From: a virus
Length of the DNA stretch: 36,869 nt
IMG/VR virus record: IMGVR_UViG_3300003937_000231
Coordinates: 1-36,869 of that record
Reading direction: 5' to 3' (one strand)
Each line of letters starts with the position of its first letter. The first letter of the stretch is position 1. A program made the position numbers and the translations under genes. Under the pieces are notes generated by a model. It was given only the letters and a program-made list of their open reading frames with translations. It searched no databases and had not been told where the DNA came from. This document shows positions 1,659-26,557 of the stretch, one piece after another.

Positions 1659-2309
1659 TTAGTTTTTACCCGATTTCATATTAGCACACCAGTGATACAT
1701 TTTTCCACGCTCACCACTATACTTCTTGGCTTTAGCACGAAGATCCGTTACCGAACCCTTGCAACTTGCACCTGCTTTTTTAACTCTACCCGGTCGGCTT
1801 TTGCCTTTCTTTTTACCATCTGCAAAGTTTTCATTTGCTAAACCTAAATTAAATAAAATATTTGATTTAGATCCCGTTGTTTTTTTAGGCATCTTCTTAA
1901 CTTTTTTATCTAATGCCTCTTTCCACTTATCTTCCATTGTAGGTTGATCATCTGCTGTGTCGCTGTAATGATCGATAAGTTCTTCTATAGTAGCATCAAC
2001 TTTAATTACTTTAACTGAAGTTAATTCTAAGCCTCGAGCTACATCATAACGATGATGCCCATTTACAATATAGTTATATTTATCAATTATGATAGGTCTT
2101 ATTGTACCGTCATTGAAGCCACGTTTTGCTTTATCATGCATGCCTTTTACACGTTGACTTTGTACAGGCTTTAATTTGTCTATGCTTATTTTACCTGTTT
2201 TATAACTAAACGGACTGTCCTTTAAATTCTTTTTTCTAATCTGAGGCATCACACTACGTGGAAAGTCTTTATCTGATTCAGGTCTTTTGCCTAACTCAAA
2301 CAGTCTCAT
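1659..2309 (-). CDS. ParB/sulfiredoxin-like domain protein
   Basis: 216 residues. The N-terminus MRLFELGK matches the peptide style of its neighbours. Residues about 60-100 resemble a ParB/Srx fold: a KLKPVQ...RV segment, then RPIIIDKYNYIVNGHHRYD, where the GHHR motif is the ParB nuclease/CTPase signature. The basic C-terminal third (lysine-rich linker, then ASCKGSVTDLRAKAK...MYHWCANMKSGK) looks like a separate Cys-containing module that I recall at the ends of other marine T4-like phage proteins. Its ATG overlaps the upstream SOD stop by one base (TAATG), so it is translationally coupled to it. Likely a DNA-associated, possibly packaged protein; nuclease activity is unproven. Confidence 0.65.
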   Translation of the reverse strand: MRLFELGKRPESDKDFPRSVMPQIRKKNLKDSPFSYKTGKISIDKLKPVQSQRVKGMHDKAKRGFNDGTIRPIIIDKYNYIVNGHHRYDVARGLELTSVKVIKVDATIEELIDHYSDTADDQPTMEDKWKEALDKKVKKMPKKTTGSKSNILFNLGLANENFADGKKKGKSRPGRVKKAGASCKGSVTDLRAKAKKYSGERGKMYHWCANMKSGKN

Positions 2310-2842
2310 TACTTGATCCTCACATTGACTTTGTCCCAGTCAATTATTTTCCATATGTTATTTAGATACTTTTCTTTATCACTCTGATAATCAAGTGCCC
2401 ATGCATGTTCCCACCAATCAACTAACACTAATATATCACTTCTCATTGCATGATTAGGTATGGTTTTTATTGTGCCGTTCCTTGCAAGATACACCCAGCC
2501 ACTGCCTTGTATACTCATTGCAACTTCTTTAAACTGTTCTTTGAATGTGTCATAGTTGCCAAACTTAGCAATTATGAATTCTAATATTTCACCATGAGGT
2601 TTATTTGCACCTGCAGGTTCTTTTAACTGTGGGAAGAAAATGTTGTGCAAGAATGCACCTGCTTCATTAAATTTTGCATCACCTTTACCAGCATTAAACT
2701 TATCTACGTATGCTTTTGCAAGTTTACCAAAATGATAATCTACTGTGTCTTTGCTCATCACAGGATTTAATGCATCACGTTTATAAGGTAAACGTTCTTG
2801 TACAAGTTTTTGTTTTTGCTCAGTTAAGTTCTCAAGTCTCAT
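2309..2842 (-). CDS. sod: Fe/Mn superoxide dismutase
   Basis: 177 residues. The alignment to Fe/Mn-SOD is clear: LPYKRDAL (18-25) matches the usual LPYxxDAL, and all four metal ligands are present (H37, H66, D142 in VDWWEH, H146). FGN...F...F and GSGWVYL core motifs are also present. It should convert superoxide to oxygen and peroxide. Oddities: the helix normally reading GKHH reads GKLA (residues 39-42), losing the conserved active-site-funnel His; the position that holds Gln in many Mn enzymes is His131, as in mycobacterial-type enzymes. About 10 extra N-terminal residues (MRLENLTE...) precede the SOD fold and resemble those of neighbouring late genes. TAA of the upstream giant gene abuts this ATG. 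Packaging into the head is an inference. Confidence 0.9.
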   Translation of the reverse strand: MRLENLTEQKQKLVQERLPYKRDALNPVMSKDTVDYHFGKLAKAYVDKFNAGKGDAKFNEAGAFLHNIFFPQLKEPAGANKPHGEILEFIIAKFGNYDTFKEQFKEVAMSIQGSGWVYLARNGTIKTIPNHAMRSDILVLVDWWEHAWALDYQSDKEKYLNNIWKIIDWDKVNVRIK

Positions 2843-5800
2843 TTATGTTGCCTTAGGATTAAATTGGAATAACATTTCTTGTGGCTTATCTGTTGTGATA
2901 ATTGCAGGATTCTTTTTGTACATACTGATTTGTTTTAAGTCTTCACCTGTCTTAACAACACCAATGCTGTTTGCCGCAAAACTTATAGCGGCAAGTATTT
3001 CCCATTCACCACCCATGTCGCTGTTCTTGTACCAATTAAAGTTACTGATAATATATGCTTTTCTCACAGTGTCTGGATCTGCGTTAGGTTGTGCAAATGC
3101 TTGTATTACAGGAGCCGCTTCAGGTCCAAATATCTCACCAAAGACTGCCTGTCCGTATGCGTTTCTTTCCTGTGGTTCTAACTCTGCAGAATTACATAGT
3201 TGTACAAACTGTTCTATGTTTAAACTTTTTTGTTTGATCAAATGCTGTGCAATCAATGGCTTTATTTTTTCGCTCGATGTAACAATTTCTAACATGCGAT
3301 TACGACTTGGAACATTACCTGTTTCACCAAACCTACCACCGCCGCCACTTGGGTTACTGCTAACTGCCGCTTTAATCTCTACTGCTGTATTGCCAATGGT
3401 TACATCACCTTTACCTTGTATGCTGATTTTCCTACACAAGATTGCTAAGGCATGTTCTGCTGGGCCTTTCATTTGTTGTCCAACACCAAATATTTTTAAG
3501 TGGTCGAACATGGCTTTGTTTACACTGCTGTTAAATGTTAAATCATCTACAGTGTAACTGCCCGGTGTTAACAATACTTTAGGATTAATTACTTTGTCTT
3601 TTGCTAAGTTATCTGCAAACTCCGAACGCTCAGCATAAGTTAATGGTGCCGTTGTGAGTTCGTATGCAATTTGTATAACCATTTTGTCTGAGTACTCGCC
3701 TCGTAATACTGTTGGTAATACTTCTTGTACTCTATCTAATACATTTCCTTTGTTTAAGATTGTGTAGATTTTATCTAATAAGTCAGCATTCTTTTTAGCA
3801 AGTTCTTGATCATCAGTTGCTGTGTCTAATGCTTGTACACCTTGTATAATATCTTGCTTTGCTTGATCCAGTGATGCATATTCAAATAATTTGCCTTCTG
3901 CTAATTGCTTTTGCTGACTGCTATGTAGTGTACCCATAAACCCTTTTACTACACTTCTTAAATCTATGCCTGTTCCACCAGATGCTATTGCTAACTTAAA
4001 TGCACTAATTAATTGTGGATTGGGTATAGCAACATAGGCTTCAAACTGTCCTTTGAGATCACTGCCTAACAAAGGCTTCATCATCAAGGCATTTAATTTA
4101 TCAAGTCTATCATTTTTAGGCACTGCACCTTCTTCTACCTGTGCTTTTTTTGTATAAACTTTGTGGGCTTCATCTATTTTGCTTTTGTCAATTTTTGCCA
4201 ACAAACGTAATTGTTCTTGTAATGGTAGTTTATCAAACTTAGTAAATGCATTTTCTTTAGTAGAAATCTCTGGATTATTTATACGCCATGCCGCGGCTGA
4301 TGAAGGCTCAAACGGTTCACCATTTGGTCCGTTTATTTCCGATCTTGGTAATAGTGGAGTTTGTTTATCTGTTTCTCTGCTGTCACCGTCGTTGGTAACT
4401 TTGATACGATTTTTCTTTAACAACGCCTGGAATTCCCTGTTCACTTTCATCTTAGATGCTTGAATGTGTTCCGGAGTTTTGTAATATAAATTTTTAAAGG
4501 CTGAAATTATATTGTGAGCAACATTTTCTCGCCATGTGCCTTTATATCGCGGATTGGCTAAAACTTCCTGTGCTTCAATTGTTATATGCCAATGCCTTGT
4601 AGGAATAATAAGCAATGTGTTATAGTTGTTACGGACGCCATGTTGCATATCAAAATCTCTGTAATCTGGTCTTCCGTTTTGTAAACTTTGAACTACTTCT
4701 TCATCAACATACACATATGAGAACATTGGTACATTAATTTCGGCTTTGTGATTTTGTCCATGCTTTTTATTAAATGCTTGTTGTTTTTTATCTAACTGCT
4801 TTTTATTTGCTATTGCATTACTTTGTCCAGCGAAGCCAAGTTTCTTAGCCATGTTGTCAACTGATGTTAGGTACTTTTCAATTGCACTCACACGTCCAGT
4901 AATTAATCTTTTGATGTCTGGATGTTTATAAAAATCTGGATTATTCTGTTTGTTGTTATAGTAACGATCGAATACTCTATTAACAAAATTTTGTGTCCAA
5001 TCTTTTAATCTGTCAGTGATAGAAGTAAAACTGAAACCATTCTCACCGGATTGATTTGTTAACTCTTGTATAATATTTTCTAACTCTTCTGCTTGTCTAT
5101 CACTTAATCCAAAATAATTATAGCCGTCATCATTATCAGCATGTATAGTATCAGCAAGACCAGGATAGTTATGTAAAAAGTCTTCTTGAGTTGCGTATGC
5201 TGAACAATCTGCATATAAGTTATCTAAAGGTTTAATAAGGCTGTGTAAACTATCTATGTATAGTTGTACATCTATGTCTTTGATACGGTCGAGTTCTTCC
5301 CAATACTTTCGCATTTTAATTAACATTTTAGATTGGGCATTATCCATATATGAATCGTCCCCTGTCAAATTAGGATTATGTCCTTTTGCAACTGGGTGAT
5401 TGTAATCTTCAAATTGAGATAATTTTTTAACCAACAGTTTAAATGATTTATCATTTATAGGTTGATTAATTTTAAACCAAGCGCCGTCTCCCCTTGGTAA
5501 TGAATGGCTATATCTTCCTGCTATTATGGCTTGGTTGAACGTTTTAAATTCTCGTTGTGGGTCGCCACTGCTTAAATCTTTCCATGCCTTCTTAACGTCG
5601 TCGACTTCATTATTTGTTAATGCTGATAAAAGTGTGTATGTTTTTTCATCTAACTCTTGTCCACTTTGTATTGCATTCCACATTAGTCCTACTACTTGTT
5701 CAACCTGCGGACCTGTCATAAACGATGGAGTTTGTACAACTTGTTTCTTAAATAATCTATCTACGCCATTTTGCAAAGACTGTATTAATGTTTTTTCGTT

Positions 5801-8215
5801 AGGATTGTTTTCCCCGACATTAATCATATTTCTATTTTTTAGTATGTTAGTACTAAGTTCTTCAAATGATAATTTAAAATCTTTAATAGAATTTCTCAAC
5901 ACACCAATTGCTTTAGCATTGACTGTAGCTCTATTTAAATTTCTATTTAAGTCATAACCTGCCTGTGCAATTGCTACAGAAAAACTATTTTGTGCTCTTT
6001 GCAAATATACTGGAGCGGTTTTACTTGGTGCAATAGTGTCTGGTTTAATTACACCTCTTAACGGTTTGTCCTCATCATCTTCAGTAATTTTCTTACCAGT
6101 ATGAGCTTCATAATCTTTAACGCTCTTTCTCCACTCAGCATCTGCCTTGGGATCACTGTACTTGTTGTACTTGTTTAAATTATTCAAAGACGTTGCAAGT
6201 GTATTCATGCTGTCACGATAATTATGTTTGCTGAATAAGTTCTGCAAGACATCAACTAACGGTTGATTGTCATCATCAAATCTACCCTTTGCAAACTCTA
6301 CATCTGTAGAATCTACTTTATCCAAATTGTTTATCAAACGGAATAATGCCTTTGCATAATCTTTTTTGTATAAGTCTTTCTCATAACCTGCCTGCATTGT
6401 GACTGCATAACGCAACACTGCTTTTGCGGCTTTATTAAACTCTTCGTGATAATCTCTACCACCACCAATTCTAAATTCTATTAATTTATTACCAGAATCA
6501 TTATCAGTTTGATCTTTGAAATGTATGCTGGAAAATTTATTATGATTGATTCCTTTACGTAAAATTTCTTCAATGGCTCGGATTGACTTTGTATTGTTAG
6601 GATCTGCTTTTAATTCTTGTGCCGCTTGTTTTAATTTACCCATATGGCTTTTAGCATAACTATTGCCATCTCTGCCAAACGTGCTTAACAAATACTTGTC
6701 GCCTAATAATACTGCAAGTTTAACTTCGTTGGCTTCGTGAGCCTGTTTATCTGCTGAATTGTAACTCATGGTCACGTGTAAACCACACGAACCGTTAGTG
6801 CCGCCGCCTTGCTCATCAACCCATGTAAACAGTTGCTTCATTTCACCAAGCATTTCTTTAGGTGTGCTATACACTGGACTTATTAATTCTGCACCAGTTC
6901 CGCCTTCATTTTCAATACTGCTGTCTGTTTCTACACGCCAAAAGTCTTGATTAGTACCTGCATTAGTGTGGTACTCTCCTGATTGTACTCTATGAAACTG
7001 AGATTTGTCGTACGCCCAATCTTCTAACATAGAACCCACAGTGTATACACCTTCGCCATCTTGTCCTGGGTTACTTAAATAAATTCCATGCTCTGATAGA
7101 GTAGATCCCCAACTGCCGTATTCGTATCTGGCCCACTCATCCATGTCGTATTCGCTTCTTGCATCATCGTAGGCTTGTTCCATTGCTTCACCACTATCAC
7201 GAATCTCATCTTTAAGCCATATTTCAAGTTCATCATGATGATGTTCTTCTACTAACTGTCTACCCCAAGCAAGAATATCCCAATCCTCGTATTCTTCTTT
7301 GTCCTGATCTTCTAAATCTTCAAGATATTGATCTCTGTATTCTTCGATGTCTGATTCATCCATTTCTTGATCAATGTAATCATTTATGTAAACTTCGTCT
7401 TCTACACGACTTTGATACATTTCTTCTACGATGTCGTATTCGAGATCTAATGCTTTATCGCCAATCCATTCGTTATATGCTTCTTCGAGTGTATTGACAC
7501 TGGACTGACCTTCTTGGTCCTGGACAAATTCCTCAATGTCGGGCCAATAGTATTCATCAACCCAATTTTCATCCTCATCAGAATCGTTTATTTGTTCCCA
7601 ATATGTTTCTGCTTCGAATCCACATTTAATAGGCATGTCTAATGCTGATGTTATTAACTTTTTGTTGTTGAAATTTATTTCAAATAAATCTTCTTCGCCT
7701 TGTTCAAGTAGATTATTTTGTCTAACAAGTCTTTTGATTTTTCTATGTATATGTTGCTTACGTTTATTTTTAGATAGTATGTTTAATGCCTTACTTTCTT
7801 CTATCTCATCTGTGGAGTCAACGTTTACAACATCGTCTGGTTTCATAATGCTAAACTTTTTGGTTGCTGGATGTTGCACAACAACTGCTTCTGGATTATT
7901 ACCATCTCCTACTGGTGAGGAAACTACTCCTATTACTTGCCCTTTATCGTCTTTGTATTCTGTGCCTACTTGTAAATCTTTTGCTTTTGCTTTTGTTAGT
8001 GTAGGTTTATTTGTTGCTGTTGTACTGACAGGTCCTGTTGTAGTAGGACTTGGTGAAGGCTTATTTAATGTAGGACTTACTGCTGGCTTTTTAACTGCAC
8101 TGGTTGATTTTGCTACAGCACCTGTTTTTTGTTGTGTGACTGGTGTTGCAGGACCTTTGGTCATGCCATATTCTTTAATCACAGTTTGTATAGATCTTAA
8201 GTCTTTAAACTTCAT
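2843..8215 (-). CDS. Giant virion-type protein with amidoligase domain and PD-(D/E)XK-like motif
   Basis: 1790 residues, the largest gene here. N-terminus MKFKDLRSIQ, then a Pro/Thr/Lys-rich disordered stretch (20-80). Residues 196-590 match the Amidoligase_2 (COOH-NH2 ligase, glutamine-synthetase-like) pattern: GFEAE at 199-203, FWRVETDSS...GAELISPV at 425-448, CGLHVTMS at 477-484, IEFRIGGG at 579-586. An extremely acidic insert (about 210-350) sits within it. Such ligases form amide bonds using ATP. Residues 601-1590 are unassigned and largely helical. At 1604-1615 GDV...VEIK gives D-x8-E-x-K, a PD-(D/E)XK nuclease-like motif, followed by a GGGGRFG loop. A Shine-Dalgarno (AGGT) precedes the ATG; the stop abuts the SOD start. 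Possibly an injected internal protein; the domain calls are by motif only. Confidence 0.8.
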   Translation of the reverse strand: MKFKDLRSIQTVIKEYGMTKGPATPVTQQKTGAVAKSTSAVKKPAVSPTLNKPSPSPTTTGPVSTTATNKPTLTKAKAKDLQVGTEYKDDKGQVIGVVSSPVGDGNNPEAVVVQHPATKKFSIMKPDDVVNVDSTDEIEESKALNILSKNKRKQHIHRKIKRLVRQNNLLEQGEEDLFEINFNNKKLITSALDMPIKCGFEAETYWEQINDSDEDENWVDEYYWPDIEEFVQDQEGQSSVNTLEEAYNEWIGDKALDLEYDIVEEMYQSRVEDEVYINDYIDQEMDESDIEEYRDQYLEDLEDQDKEEYEDWDILAWGRQLVEEHHHDELEIWLKDEIRDSGEAMEQAYDDARSEYDMDEWARYEYGSWGSTLSEHGIYLSNPGQDGEGVYTVGSMLEDWAYDKSQFHRVQSGEYHTNAGTNQDFWRVETDSSIENEGGTGAELISPVYSTPKEMLGEMKQLFTWVDEQGGGTNGSCGLHVTMSYNSADKQAHEANEVKLAVLLGDKYLLSTFGRDGNSYAKSHMGKLKQAAQELKADPNNTKSIRAIEEILRKGINHNKFSSIHFKDQTDNDSGNKLIEFRIGGGRDYHEEFNKAAKAVLRYAVTMQAGYEKDLYKKDYAKALFRLINNLDKVDSTDVEFAKGRFDDDNQPLVDVLQNLFSKHNYRDSMNTLATSLNNLNKYNKYSDPKADAEWRKSVKDYEAHTGKKITEDDEDKPLRGVIKPDTIAPSKTAPVYLQRAQNSFSVAIAQAGYDLNRNLNRATVNAKAIGVLRNSIKDFKLSFEELSTNILKNRNMINVGENNPNEKTLIQSLQNGVDRLFKKQVVQTPSFMTGPQVEQVVGLMWNAIQSGQELDEKTYTLLSALTNNEVDDVKKAWKDLSSGDPQREFKTFNQAIIAGRYSHSLPRGDGAWFKINQPINDKSFKLLVKKLSQFEDYNHPVAKGHNPNLTGDDSYMDNAQSKMLIKMRKYWEELDRIKDIDVQLYIDSLHSLIKPLDNLYADCSAYATQEDFLHNYPGLADTIHADNDDGYNYFGLSDRQAEELENIIQELTNQSGENGFSFTSITDRLKDWTQNFVNRVFDRYYNNKQNNPDFYKHPDIKRLITGRVSAIEKYLTSVDNMAKKLGFAGQSNAIANKKQLDKKQQAFNKKHGQNHKAEINVPMFSYVYVDEEVVQSLQNGRPDYRDFDMQHGVRNNYNTLLIIPTRHWHITIEAQEVLANPRYKGTWRENVAHNIISAFKNLYYKTPEHIQASKMKVNREFQALLKKNRIKVTNDGDSRETDKQTPLLPRSEINGPNGEPFEPSSAAAWRINNPEISTKENAFTKFDKLPLQEQLRLLAKIDKSKIDEAHKVYTKKAQVEEGAVPKNDRLDKLNALMMKPLLGSDLKGQFEAYVAIPNPQLISAFKLAIASGGTGIDLRSVVKGFMGTLHSSQQKQLAEGKLFEYASLDQAKQDIIQGVQALDTATDDQELAKKNADLLDKIYTILNKGNVLDRVQEVLPTVLRGEYSDKMVIQIAYELTTAPLTYAERSEFADNLAKDKVINPKVLLTPGSYTVDDLTFNSSVNKAMFDHLKIFGVGQQMKGPAEHALAILCRKISIQGKGDVTIGNTAVEIKAAVSSNPSGGGGRFGETGNVPSRNRMLEIVTSSEKIKPLIAQHLIKQKSLNIEQFVQLCNSAELEPQERNAYGQAVFGEIFGPEAAPVIQAFAQPNADPDTVRKAYIISNFNWYKNSDMGGEWEILAAISFAANSIGVVKTGEDLKQISMYKKNPAIITTDKPQEMLFQFNPKAT

Positions 8216-8220
8216 TCCAG

Positions 8221-8499
8221 TTACCTATTAAGCATTTTTAATCTGCGACTTGCAGGATTAAATCTTTTTGTTCTCTGTGCTTTACGCTTCATGCGTGAAC
8301 CAAACTTTGCTTTAGTTTTTTTAAGTGTTAATCTTTTCTTTAGATCAATTGGTGCTGAACATTGTGCCGCTGTGCTTACTACTCTGCCTTTTCGTCTACC
8401 TGAGGTGCATCTCACAGCACGGACTACTTTGTTGCCCATCTTACGCCACACCATTCTTGCTTCAAGAATATTTTCTTCAGTGAGTTGCTCGTATCTCAT
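8221..8499 (-). CDS. Small conserved basic protein
   Basis: 92 residues from the ATG at 8499, chosen because it overlaps the upstream TGA as ATGA; a longer frame would run far into the neighbour. The start MRYEQLTEENILEA carries the recurrent N-terminal style and an ILE/A cleavage-like site. The remainder is very rich in Lys/Arg, with two Cys (RCTSGRRKGR, AAQCSAP) and a repeated KRxxRTKRxNPASRR-type tail. I recall similar basic proteins in many T4-like marine phages, without a known role. A DNA-binding, head-packaged protein is the simplest reading, as inference. Confidence 0.75.
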   Translation of the reverse strand: MRYEQLTEENILEARMVWRKMGNKVVRAVRCTSGRRKGRVVSTAAQCSAPIDLKKRLTLKKTKAKFGSRMKRKAQRTKRFNPASRRLKMLNR

Positions 8500-11242: not shown

Positions 11243-12514
11243 TTATGCACCAGGCTTTCCTGATCCAAAGTTTAGTCTGCTAAACTCTAACCTATCAACA
11301 AGTTTTAGTGCATTGCCTACTCTGTCGACAGCAACAAAACCTTCTTCACTGGTTACTTCATATCCATCGCCAGTTTCAACAAATGTATCCATTTGACGTA
11401 TTTGTTCTAACTTCTTAACAATAATGACTTTAGACTCAATTAACTTCAAGTACAAATCATACACTGCAACAATACCTGGTACATGCTCTTTGATAAATTT
11501 AACACCTTGTACAAGTTTTTCTGTCATTTCGTCTTGCTTTGCTTGAGTCTTGTAACCGTCTATTTTCTTTTGCATAAAATTTATGTACTTTTGTACAAAA
11601 CCTTTTGCAAACACAGTTGGATTATCAAACGCTCCTGCTCTGATGTTATTGTTCACATGTGCTTTGAGCTGTTGTAAAAATTCTTTACCTATTAGATCGT
11701 TGCCTTTCTCTAACCAAGCAAATGTTTCAGCGTCAATGCTTTTTAAATATGTAGCCGCTTCTTGTATTGAGTTTTTCATAGCAACACTTTCTTCTTTGGT
11801 CATAGTGACTGTGCCGCTTAAATCTTTTATTAGTGCATCTCTGTGCCACACACTTGGTGTTTGCCCTAACACACTGCTGTCAAAACCAAACTTTGCTGAC
11901 GTATCTGCCAGTGTTGGACCACCTGCATATTCTGTGTGCCACACAATTCCCATTTCAGCACTGCTGATTTGTCCTGCTAACTCTGAGTTTGAAGGTACAG
12001 TATAAACAATGGTATTTGGTTTGAACGCAATTACTTCATCACCGTCTATGGTTGTTTTCATTAAGTCTTCTTTGGTGAACAACATATCGCCTTGTGCAAC
12101 TGTGTTCCATGTTAATTTACTTAAATGTGTTAATGCACTGATTAACTTTTGCTGTAAGCCTTCTGCAGGGTGATTTTCTTTGATATCTGCTACTGTGAAA
12201 TTCATTTTAGGCTTACGTGCAAACACACCTTTGGTGCCTACAAAGAATTTACCACTTTGCGGATCTCTGCCTGCTATAATGGCAGGAGCACCGTCCCACT
12301 TGGTTGTCATACTTACTGGTGCTTTTGTGTTGCCTTCAAGCATTTCATGTAAACTGTACAAGTAGTCTACTGCTTCCTTGGCGCCTTTATAGCCTTTGTT
12401 AAAAATATTATCTTCGAGATGTTCGAGGTGAGTGTTTTTACCTTCTGCTTCTTGTAGTGCAGACTCTGTGAGTATGCCTGTAACAAGTGGTTTAGAAAGT
12501 TCTACAAATTTCAT
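11243..12514 (-). CDS. KxDG nucleotidyltransferase (ligase-like) protein
   Basis: 423 residues. After a leader MKFVELSKPL...GILTE/S, residues 69-75 read SMTTKWDG. This matches motif I (KxDG, adenylated lysine K72) of DNA/RNA ligases and capping enzymes. FFVGTKGVFAR (90-100), AQGDMLF (140-146), VIAFKPNTIVYTVP (161-174) and MGIVWHTEY (188-196) follow in the order expected for motifs III-V, although the classical EGxV and KxK forms are not obvious. The C-terminal half is helical. It could seal nucleic acid or modify another target by nucleotidyl transfer; I recall a conserved unassigned T4-like marine family of this kind. The ATG overlaps the upstream gene's stop by one base. Confidence 0.65.
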   Translation of the reverse strand: MKFVELSKPLVTGILTESALQEAEGKNTHLEHLEDNIFNKGYKGAKEAVDYLYSLHEMLEGNTKAPVSMTTKWDGAPAIIAGRDPQSGKFFVGTKGVFARKPKMNFTVADIKENHPAEGLQQKLISALTHLSKLTWNTVAQGDMLFTKEDLMKTTIDGDEVIAFKPNTIVYTVPSNSELAGQISSAEMGIVWHTEYAGGPTLADTSAKFGFDSSVLGQTPSVWHRDALIKDLSGTVTMTKEESVAMKNSIQEAATYLKSIDAETFAWLEKGNDLIGKEFLQQLKAHVNNNIRAGAFDNPTVFAKGFVQKYINFMQKKIDGYKTQAKQDEMTEKLVQGVKFIKEHVPGIVAVYDLYLKLIESKVIIVKKLEQIRQMDTFVETGDGYEVTSEEGFVAVDRVGNALKLVDRLEFSRLNFGSGKPGA

Positions 12515-18812: not shown

Positions 18813-18840
18813 ATTATAACACCTATTCATTTAATGTCAA
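18813..18840 (-). promoter_or_regulatory. Sigma70-type promoter for the DnaE-like gene
   Basis: TTGACA (18835-18840), 16-bp spacer, TATAAT (18813-18818), minus strand, overlapping the 3' end of the lipoprotein gene. The ATG at 18805 follows the -10 box by 7 bases, with no Shine-Dalgarno. Confidence 0.85.
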
Positions 18841-20331
18841 GTAATCAGTAGTGGTGTATATTTCTATATTACCATCTGTTGCAGTTGTTTCGCCAAACAC
18901 AACAACATCAACATAACCATCGCTGTTCATATCGTGTAGATAACCTTGTGCATTGTCCTGTACACCACTGTGACCCGGCATTGGCTCTTCAGCGTTTTCA
19001 TACATTACAAACTTACTGCCGTTGTTTAAATACACCATTGGCTTACCACCAAATTGTCGCTCACCTCTACTGAACTCTGATATAACCACATCACTTAATC
19101 CGTCGTTGTTAATATCTCCGCATTCAAAGAAGTTTGCATTGTATTGATTAATTTCATTTACAAATGCATCTTCACGTTGTACTAATTTATTATCTACAAT
19201 ATCAAACACTAATAAGAATCTATGGTCGTCCATATCGTCAACATCATACGTTCCGCCTTCGTACACTTCTACTGTAGGCTTCCATCCATCAAACATAGCA
19301 ATAACAGAAGAGTCGTCCATAACACACATTTGGCTGGCCGCAATACCTAAATACTGCTCGCCATTAACCAACATCACATCCATTGGACCAACATCACCAT
19401 TCCAATTGGTAACTGTGATAATAAACTCTGCTGGTGTTAAATAACTATCATCCATTGCCCAGTCTTCGTATTCTGTAAACAAACCAATACCACATGCTGG
19501 TGGTGTGTCATTACTTGTGAAAATACAAGTTGTACCAACAATCGAATCTGTACCAACAGTTTGAAAATCTGTTGACCAATGACTTGCTGGTTGATTTATT
19601 CCCACAGGATATTCTTGTGTAGTAGATACCCATTCATTGTTTACTAATCTGTATGCCTGAAATTGGTCGCCACAATAGCCTCCAAACAATGCATCATCAT
19701 ATCCTTGATCGTTTGGCCTCGATTGTACTGCATGTCCCCAACAAGGTTGTCCAAACACACTGATGTCATATGTGTAATTTGCATTACTTAATAACACTGT
19801 TGGTTGAGCATCATACACTGACTCATTGTTTCTACCATCTTCCCAATTGGTTGCAAATGCATAATCATCTACACCATCGTTATTAAAGTCACCTACAGCA
19901 TATTTTCTACTTGCACCACTGATGCTTGGGTAACTCTCACCAAACACATCATAGTTCTCTACAGTAAATCCGCCAATGCCGTCACTAACCTGTGCAACAA
20001 GTATATTAGGTGTAGCAGTAGTCTTCTCTGAATTAGTTGCTAAGTCGCACCAATAGACAACAATAAAGTCTGTGTACTCGTCATCATTTAACTTTGTGGG
20101 TATTGCAAACTGTATGCTTGGCTCTAACGTTGTATCAGCAGTACACACATTGCTGTAATATGTATCTGGATCATATGCTACAAGTGGTTCAGCATTGTAT
20201 AATGGTGTTGGAGTTGAGGGTGGTGTAGGTGGTGTGAGTGGTTGTAACCCAACTGCTGGAGATGTCCCACTACCGCCACATGCGGTCAAGAACAATAAAC
20301 TAATACCTACACTGACTTTGCTAAAATTCAT
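18823..20331 (-). CDS. Secreted lipoprotein with FG-GAP/VCBS-type repeats
   Basis: 502 residues. The N-terminus MNFSKVSVGISLLFLTAC is a lipoprotein signal with lipobox LTAC and lipidated C18, followed by a Gly/Ser/Pro/Thr-rich tether (19-45). The body contains several FG-GAP/VCBS calcium-binding repeats: VGDFNNDGVDDYAF near 146, CGDINNDGLSDVVIS near 422, MNSDGYVDVVVFG near 470. These suggest a beta-propeller on the host membrane surface or in the periplasm. Aspartate- and aromatic-rich, with several Cys. It has its own consensus promoter and a GGTAGGA Shine-Dalgarno, so expression early in infection is expected. Such a gene is bacterial in style. Receptor masking or nutrient binding are possible; not known. 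Confidence 0.88.
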   Translation of the reverse strand: MNFSKVSVGISLLFLTACGGSGTSPAVGLQPLTPPTPPSTPTPLYNAEPLVAYDPDTYYSNVCTADTTLEPSIQFAIPTKLNDDEYTDFIVVYWCDLATNSEKTTATPNILVAQVSDGIGGFTVENYDVFGESYPSISGASRKYAVGDFNNDGVDDYAFATNWEDGRNNESVYDAQPTVLLSNANYTYDISVFGQPCWGHAVQSRPNDQGYDDALFGGYCGDQFQAYRLVNNEWVSTTQEYPVGINQPASHWSTDFQTVGTDSIVGTTCIFTSNDTPPACGIGLFTEYEDWAMDDSYLTPAEFIITVTNWNGDVGPMDVMLVNGEQYLGIAASQMCVMDDSSVIAMFDGWKPTVEVYEGGTYDVDDMDDHRFLLVFDIVDNKLVQREDAFVNEINQYNANFFECGDINNDGLSDVVISEFSRGERQFGGKPMVYLNNGSKFVMYENAEEPMPGHSGVQDNAQGYLHDMNSDGYVDVVVFGETTATDGNIEIYTTTDYLTLNE

Positions 20332-24950: not shown

Positions 24951-24979
24951 TATATACCTTAGTTTGATGAGATTGTCAA
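24951..24979 (-). promoter_or_regulatory. Sigma70-type promoter for uvsW
   Basis: TTGACA (24974-24979), 17-bp spacer, TATATA (24951-24956) on the minus strand; overlaps the 3' end of the receptor gene. The ATG at 24945 follows by 5 bases. Confidence 0.7.
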
Positions 24980-26557
24980 GAAGTATTTTCTACCACCAGC
25001 ACCATAGCCTGGTGTTACTTCAAACTCATTATCAAATACATCGCGAACAGTAAACGATACTGTGGCTTTTGCAAACTGTCTGCTGAACACAAAATCAAGT
25101 GTGCTTAGGTCATCCAGGCTTGCTCCATCGTAAGGTCCAGGTGCTCTGTCAAACATACCACTATAAATAGTTTTGAATTTTACATCACCAAAACTTGCAT
25201 AGTAGCTCAACTGAGTTTTTAACTCTGGTACACGTGGTTGATCACTGTCTGTGTATCCAACCATTACATTAAGACTGCCATACGGTACAGCATAAGCATC
25301 TACAAATCTAATGCCCTGTGTTTTGTATTCGCCTGAGTTAATGTATGTTGCACTGTTATACACACCTGCATCATCCGTGTAGCCTGATTGGTATTGTATA
25401 CCTTGTTCAAATTCATACCTGTACAATGTTATAGCACCAAATGTAACTTCAGCACCCATAGACTCTTCTGCTTCTAAGTCTGCATTGCCTTGTACCCATA
25501 CGTCACCATTTTGTTGATACAATGTAGGGTTACGATAACTGGTAGCAAAATTTATAGAAAGCAGTTCTTTGCTGTATCCTACTCTGTAAACAAATGCATC
25601 TTCGTTTACTCTTACGCCGACACCAAATTGGTTTTCAAAGTTAATAGATGCATAACCACTGACATCAGTCTGATCGTTATCCATATATGTTTCTTGATCA
25701 CCGGTGATACCCACAATAAGTTCTGCGGCTGGTGTGCCAAGTAGATATTTGGTTTTAGCATCTAAGTAAAGTCTTTCTGCTTCGCTGTCATACGTTAAGT
25801 CATCTCCAGTAAAATAATCTGCATTATTTTTGTTATAACCTAATGTGATGTTATCATTACGAACACTCACAGCAACTTTATTACCAGTCTGAGTACAATC
25901 GTTTGACTGTGAAAAACTTGCAGTATAGCAGTTGTCATAGTCATAATCGTAATCAGTGTAATTTACATTGATGTCAAATCCACCAACTGTTTGATCAAGC
26001 CTTGCTGTTTTGTTTACATAATTATCTGTTTCATCGTTGTCAGTTCTCACTGAGCCGTTTGATACATCAAAATATGTAACACCAAATCCGCTTTGACTTA
26101 CATCAACAAGTGTATGGTCTGACCCAAGCCTGGATACAAAACCGTCTTGTAGGTCGTCTGTGATAAACACTGAACCACCCAAACTGCCTGAACCATATAG
26201 CACACTGTTAGGACCACTAACAATTTTTAATGCTTCTTGTCCAGTAACAATGTCGTGACCAAAGTCATACCATCCTGAGCCTGCATCGTTAACAGGTACA
26301 CCATTCCTAAAAATAGTTGTGTGTTCTGTTTGTGCTCCACGCTCATTATAGCCACTAAAGCCACCAAAGCCTCCGGCTGTGTATGCCATTGCAGGCATTA
26401 CTGTTTCTACTAACCCAAAGTCTTCGTTAACGTTTGGAGTAGTTTCAACAATTGTTGCACCGACTACAACAATTTCTTCTATCAAGTCATCTGCATACAC
26501 GTTAATGTTTAATAAACATGCAACGGCAAGTAATGACGCTATCTTTCTATTCTTCAT
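24959..26557 (-). CDS. TonB-dependent outer-membrane receptor
   Basis: 532 residues. A signal peptide (MKNRKIASLLAVACLLNINVYA) is followed by a TonB box-like EEIVVVGA (27-34). The plug domain then has RNGVPVNDAGSGWYDF, the IVSGPNSVLYGSGSLGGSV plug hallmark (about 112-130), and the remaining ~390 residues are alternating aromatic/hydrophobic beta strands (YNVKYTD-like repeats) ending in GAGGRKYFLTISS with a near-C-terminal Phe, typical of barrel assembly. It is short for the family (often 600-750) because of a shortened plug and loops, but looks intact. TonB-dependent receptors import B12, iron complexes or sugars. AAGGAAAA precedes the ATG. No sigma70 box is visible directly upstream. Confidence 0.93.
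   Translation of the reverse strand: MKNRKIASLLAVACLLNINVYADDLIEEIVVVGATIVETTPNVNEDFGLVETVMPAMAYTAGGFGGFSGYNERGAQTEHTTIFRNGVPVNDAGSGWYDFGHDIVTGQEALKIVSGPNSVLYGSGSLGGSVFITDDLQDGFVSRLGSDHTLVDVSQSGFGVTYFDVSNGSVRTDNDETDNYVNKTARLDQTVGGFDINVNYTDYDYDYDNCYTASFSQSNDCTQTGNKVAVSVRNDNITLGYNKNNADYFTGDDLTYDSEAERLYLDAKTKYLLGTPAAELIVGITGDQETYMDNDQTDVSGYASINFENQFGVGVRVNEDAFVYRVGYSKELLSINFATSYRNPTLYQQNGDVWVQGNADLEAEESMGAEVTFGAITLYRYEFEQGIQYQSGYTDDAGVYNSATYINSGEYKTQGIRFVDAYAVPYGSLNVMVGYTDSDQPRVPELKTQLSYYASFGDVKFKTIYSGMFDRAPGPYDGASLDDLSTLDFVFSRQFAKATVSFTVRDVFDNEFEVTPGYGAGGRKYFLTISSN

Follow-up and report, generated by a model that had tools for sequence, protein, structure and literature searches.

A giant polyprotein of an aquatic T4-like phage carries an amidoligase domain and is predicted to be head-packaged, protease-processed and injected

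The window (the whole stretch of DNA analysed, 36,869 nt, from an IMG/VR virus record) encodes on its minus strand a 1790-aa giant protein (2843..8215), whose homologues, encoded on many viral contigs, are 1500-2350 aa long. An amidoligase domain is its second module, placed after an N-terminal leader resembling T4 capsid-targeting sequences, and the same arrangement was found in 29 non-redundant complete phage giants. We consider it probable that the giant is a polyprotein that is packaged into the head, processed by the prohead protease and injected into the host.

The window is a 37-kb fragment that contains T4-like phage genes (terminase, gp32-type SSB, DnaB, primase and helicase). Its terminase is closest to those of Pseudomonas jumbo phages of the PA5oct/MIJ3 group (57% identity), and the source of the giant is an aquatic T4-like phage. 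The initial annotation had described a giant late gene encoding 1790 residues. The size was confirmed and the orientation was corrected to the minus strand, whereas "late" is unproven, the count of the T4 late promoter TATAAATA not exceeding that in shuffled sequences (6 in the window versus 3.84 expected, which is uninformative). Additionally, two ~500-aa proteins with apparent secretion/lipoprotein signals (18826-20331 and 24962-26557, minus strand; LFLTACGG and LLAVACLLNINVYA), unusual for a T4-like replication region, are encoded in the window.

Amidoligase_2 (PF12224) was the only Pfam family above the cut-off in the giant. It matched residues 419-561 (E 1.4e-6; 28.8 bits versus a cut-off of 22), and the same profile matched 5 of 8 aligned members. 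A match to SbsC_C at residues 847-883 was below the cut-off and was discarded. Profile-profile comparison with annotated phage amidoligases (hhalign) gave a probability of 98.8% and an E value of 1.3e-16, pairing W.VE.DSSI, ELISP, N.S.GxH and EFR with their counterparts; this alignment covers the motifs from W..E onward, and GFEAE was matched to the canonical members by eye. An AF2 model of the region (pLDDT 82.5), as proposed in the initial annotation, had glutamine synthetases as its top matches in a Foldseek search of the PDB (E 0.058, prob 0.85, sub-significant), and the Pup ligase PafA and Dop were also among the matches but much weaker. A PDB sequence search with the amidoligase profile gave nothing meaningful. 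Because the Foldseek E value does not reach the usual significance, the family assignment rests on the sequence profiles. The Amidoligase_2 domain previously recognized within the 1790-residue protein is supported by both profile methods and, weakly, by the fold, and the region was not placed in another fold lacking the ATP-site Glu residues. Its reported extent (6460-7630) was correctly located but slightly too short, the domain comprising residues ~178-640 (6296..7684, minus strand). The giant almost certainly carries an amidoligase-class domain, for which ATP-dependent ligation is predicted.

The minus strand encodes every motif named in the initial annotation: GFEAE, the first catalytic motif (residue 199; 7607..7621), FWRVETDSS (residue 425), ELISPV (residue 443), CGLHVT (residue 477) and IEFRIGGG (residue 579; 6458-6481). 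These motifs are not chance resemblances: in an alignment of 24 homologues with 31-47% identity to the query, the Glu, Asp, His and Arg residues of the catalytic motifs are all invariant, and the other motif positions are invariant or nearly so. Specifically, GFEAE is invariant in 24/24, as are E429, D431 and SSI of WRVETDSSI (6914..6940); E443, S446 and P447 of ELISP (6875..6889), T, N, G, L and H480 of TNGSCGLH (6776..6799), and E580, F581 and R582 of IEFR (6470..6481) are likewise invariant. The "very acidic insert" noted earlier was also confirmed. It is all-helical in the model, contains 67 D/E and 11 K/R in 206 residues (6986..7603, minus strand) and lies between GFEAE and the remaining motifs, and because it intervenes, the PF12224 match stops before GFEAE.

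A search of IMG/VR yielded 132 stretches fitting a pattern, 109 of which were confirmed as relatives, so the amidoligase module is encoded on at least 109 viral contigs. No relative was confirmed in the bacterial genome contigs scanned. Among named phages, only Agrobacterium phage Atu_ph07 yielded a close relative. This protein of 500 aa stands alone, aligns throughout and is without the leader region, and its gene lies one gene away from that of the portal. A Christensenellales phage (L139:3191-6048) has, close to ParB and terminase, genes for an amidoligase and a gamma-glutamyl cyclotransferase, an arrangement absent from the window. The phage Amidoligase_2 members compared (from Porphyromonas and Christensenellales phages and Atu_ph07) share G[FI]E.E, W.V..DSSI, E[LV]xSP, N.S.GxH and EFR with the giant. 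Those checked are stand-alone proteins of ~315-520 aa, whereas in the giant the domain comes second in a polyprotein of 1790 aa. The giant further differs from canonical members in its acidic helical insert, in that searches of 16 giant-bearing contigs, all fragments, gave no GATase_6 or AIG2_2 partner, and in having HVT instead of HVH, the second His of the canonical CGxHVH being Thr in the giant and Asn in Atu_ph07.

The leader of the giant, MKFKDLRSIQTVIKE-Y (8171..8215, minus strand; putative cut before Y), ends in I-x-E and is conserved in complete giants, in which leaders such as MKFTDVRTLESVLAE-Y and MTLNELLE-Y likewise end in L/I-x-E. For targeting in T4, IPIII needs no more than its first 10 residues, and the cut made by gp21 follows L/I-x-E (PMC9026906). 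A second putative prohead-protease site, LLE-Q (7700..7711, minus strand), is located just ahead of the amidoligase. In nearly all giants, a basic stretch ending in x-E-A or x-E-Q is found 5-10 residues before the "LFEINFN" of the ligase. The strict L/I-x-E form of this site is present in 23 of 30 sequences, compared with ~17% expected from the site density; sequence 30 is Atu_ph07, not a giant, and the strict fraction is therefore 23/29 giants. By eye, with P3 or P1' relaxed, 28 of the 29 giants have the site; 6 of the 29 fit only via the relaxed P3.

Another putative site, LFE-Y (3878..3889, minus strand), is located ahead of the C-terminal module (2846..3880, minus strand), and the P1 Glu of this site occupies one of only 14 columns that are invariant across 25 sequences. 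In other phages this module is a stand-alone gene, whose products begin with MRASELLFE-Y, MRARDFLRE-Y, MRAKQLIRE-Y or MKITQIVRE-Y, and the giant has KLFE-Y at the same Glu. Moreover, the region around this Glu is the sole internal stretch of the C-terminal model with a pLDDT below 50, indicating flexibility. Between the amidoligase and this site are a helical middle region without an assigned function (4226..6295, minus strand), which is kept alongside the amidoligase in most relatives, and a ~75-aa helical module, KPLL..DLKGQ..AY.AIPNPQ (3905..4126, minus strand), which recurs in giants, usually directly before the C-terminal module. Giants continuing past the KPLL module have an L/I-x-E-type site there, whereas those ending at it have none.

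The invariant residues of the C-terminal module in the 25 sequences include E1587, D1604, E1613-x-K1615, GGR1626-1628 and Q1784, giving the E, D, E-x-K pattern of PD-(D/E)XK nucleases, but no fold or profile match to these nucleases was found. The model of the module (pLDDT 84.9) had no Foldseek match in the PDB below E 4.5 and matched only uncharacterised phage proteins in the viral library, and a PDB sequence search with its profile gave nothing meaningful. Pfam and PHROGs showed no informative family for this module or for most of the swapped tails; type-2 tails matched phrog_3560, a family without an assigned function. No fold match being found, the nuclease assignment is inferred from the motif. 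Across giants, the C-terminal slot is exchanged among at least three nuclease-motif families or is empty, and besides the type in the window there are at least two tail families with different D...K motifs. Two families with D...S-x-K style motifs were seen, one in giants L038, L062, L064, L067 and L097 and the other in giants L044, L059, L061 and L071, and some of these modules sit upstream of the KPLL module rather than after it. In Synechococcus phage ACG-2014f (L141:3713-5014), a stand-alone relative of the type-2 tail is located directly before a Dam methylase gene, which is compatible with a nuclease.

A gp21-type protease (Peptidase_S77) was found beside gp22-/gp23-like genes on 2 of 20 related contigs, which are fragments; one (G010) bears an amidoligase giant and the other (G016) a relative without the ligase. 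The window itself, a fragment without the head gene cluster, contains neither gp21 nor gp23. The leader pattern independently picked out gp21, gp22 and gp23, which served as a positive control, and was present in 23 of 101 genes within 10 positions of the giant versus 24 of 460 elsewhere (3% in interior control windows). Counted by gene family, leaders were found in 15/46 near the giant versus 20/245 elsewhere (p 3.5e-5), and in families with at least two members the values were 6/18 versus 7/83 (p 0.011); because the contigs are related, independence is overstated and these p-values are indicative only.

Several neighbours of the giant are encoded on the minus strand. An Fe/Mn superoxide dismutase (2312..2842; Sod_Fe_C 8.4e-25) has the leader MRLENLTE-Q and, judging from this leader, is possibly head-packaged and delivered at infection. 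The corresponding leader is MKVNDFLTE-A in contig G002, and the superoxide dismutase of the cultured Pseudomonas phage MIJ3 starts with ...YISIAE-A. A protein with the leader MRYEQLTEENILE-A is encoded at 8224..8499, and a ParB-like nuclease-family protein (1662..2309; phrog_620 1.1e-8) has the N-terminus MRLFELGK. In addition, a DUF6267 protein (11246..12514; 3.1e-101) has a leader-like N-terminus (...ILTES) and may be another head-packaged protein; this N-terminus is present in relatives too.

These features suggest a mechanism in which the leader would take the giant into the prohead core, where a gp21-type protease would remove the leader and linker and cut between the amidoligase-plus-middle part and the nuclease-like module at the C-terminus. 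These pieces would then exit the head together with the DNA into the host. Head packaging and processing are likely from the sequence features, and injection is somewhat less firmly predicted, yet still favoured. In the host, the amidoligase, as an ATP-dependent ligase of the glutamine-synthetase fold, would join an amine (an amino acid or peptide) to a carboxylate of a host protein or small molecule, aiding takeover or counter-defence, and the C-terminal module would act on nucleic acid. The predicted targets of the ligase are probably host proteins or metabolites; the proposal that the substrate is a host protein is tentative. A bolder version, in which widespread aquatic T4-like phages inject a protease-matured polyprotein whose ligase adds amino acids or peptides to host proteins early in a pupylation-like manner, alongside an exchangeable C-terminal nuclease module, is speculative and rather unlikely as a whole.

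The closest comparison is with T4 Alt and IPI-IPIII, which like the giant have a leader ending in L/I-x-E; a gp21-type protease is found in relatives of the giant, and ejection with DNA would be expected. The giant differs in its far larger size, in the internal sites between modules and in being a ligase, whereas the T4 internal proteins are ADP-ribosyltransferases or restriction inhibitors. The polyvalent proteins (Iyer et al. 2017, PMC5512222) are very large, multi-domain and predicted to be delivered with DNA. Like them, the giant would combine enzymatic modules in one chain (a ligase and a nuclease-motif module, with injection predicted), but none of the domains of the published set was found in it, Pfam showing Amidoligase_2 alone above the cut-off, and its processing would involve a gp21-type protease rather than the zincin-like metallopeptidases of polyvalent proteins (PMC5512222). 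The text of that paper contains no mention of an amidoligase.

The initial annotation had considered modification of the host cell wall, of a virion component or of an injected peptide. The leader and cleavage sites speak for a protein that is packaged in the head and injected; cell-wall modification is disfavoured for the reasons given below. The alternative that survives best, albeit unlikely, is that the ligase is a virion-modifying enzyme rather than mainly a host effector: within the head or prohead, it would couple amino acids or peptides to proteins of the head or core. The leader and sites point to the head, where the enzyme could act before DNA packaging, and relatives have acidic, carboxylate-rich core proteins; however, a specific head substrate is not evident, and T4 internal proteins with such leaders are in many cases ejected (PMC9026906).

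Cell-wall modification has been proposed for the amidoligases of phiEco32-type phages (cited in PMC10580990). By analogy, the giant would be a cytoplasmic late enzyme altering peptidoglycan or the cell surface against superinfection, and the Christensenellales phage with a gamma-glutamyl cyclotransferase gene near its amidoligase agrees with such a role. We consider this improbable: the ligase of the giant shares its chain with a leader, processing sites and nuclease-like modules, and searches for GATase_6 and AIG2_2 partners on 16 giant-bearing contigs, which are fragments, gave no match, which makes it less likely. It is equally improbable that the giant is a bulk internal-head structural protein with the ligase as a domesticated, inactive fold. 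Its very large size, its helical middle region and the retention of the module while the tails vary would suit such a protein, but structural reuse would not need the catalytic acidic, His and Arg residues, which are invariant at 31-47% identity. About as improbable is that the protein is a cytoplasmic enzyme of several domains joined by ordinary linkers, in which leaders and Glu sites occur by coincidence. Although L/I-x-E is a short motif, its positions are precisely conserved at two module borders, stand-alone versions start at the same Glu, and the same pattern caught gp21, gp22 and gp23.

Precedents exist for amidoligases, for internal proteins targeted to the capsid and for polyvalent proteins, and a search of the open-access literature, which left out most subscription papers, gave no description of an amidoligase delivered by a capsid. 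If the reading of the giant as a head-packaged, processed and injected polyprotein is true, T4-like phages inject glutamine-synthetase-type ligases, ligation would extend the known repertoire of ejected proteins beyond ADP-ribosyltransferases and restriction inhibitors, and the head protease would mature a multi-enzyme polyprotein. The grammar of leader and sites would offer a concrete route to predicting ejected effectors in uncultured T4-like phages.
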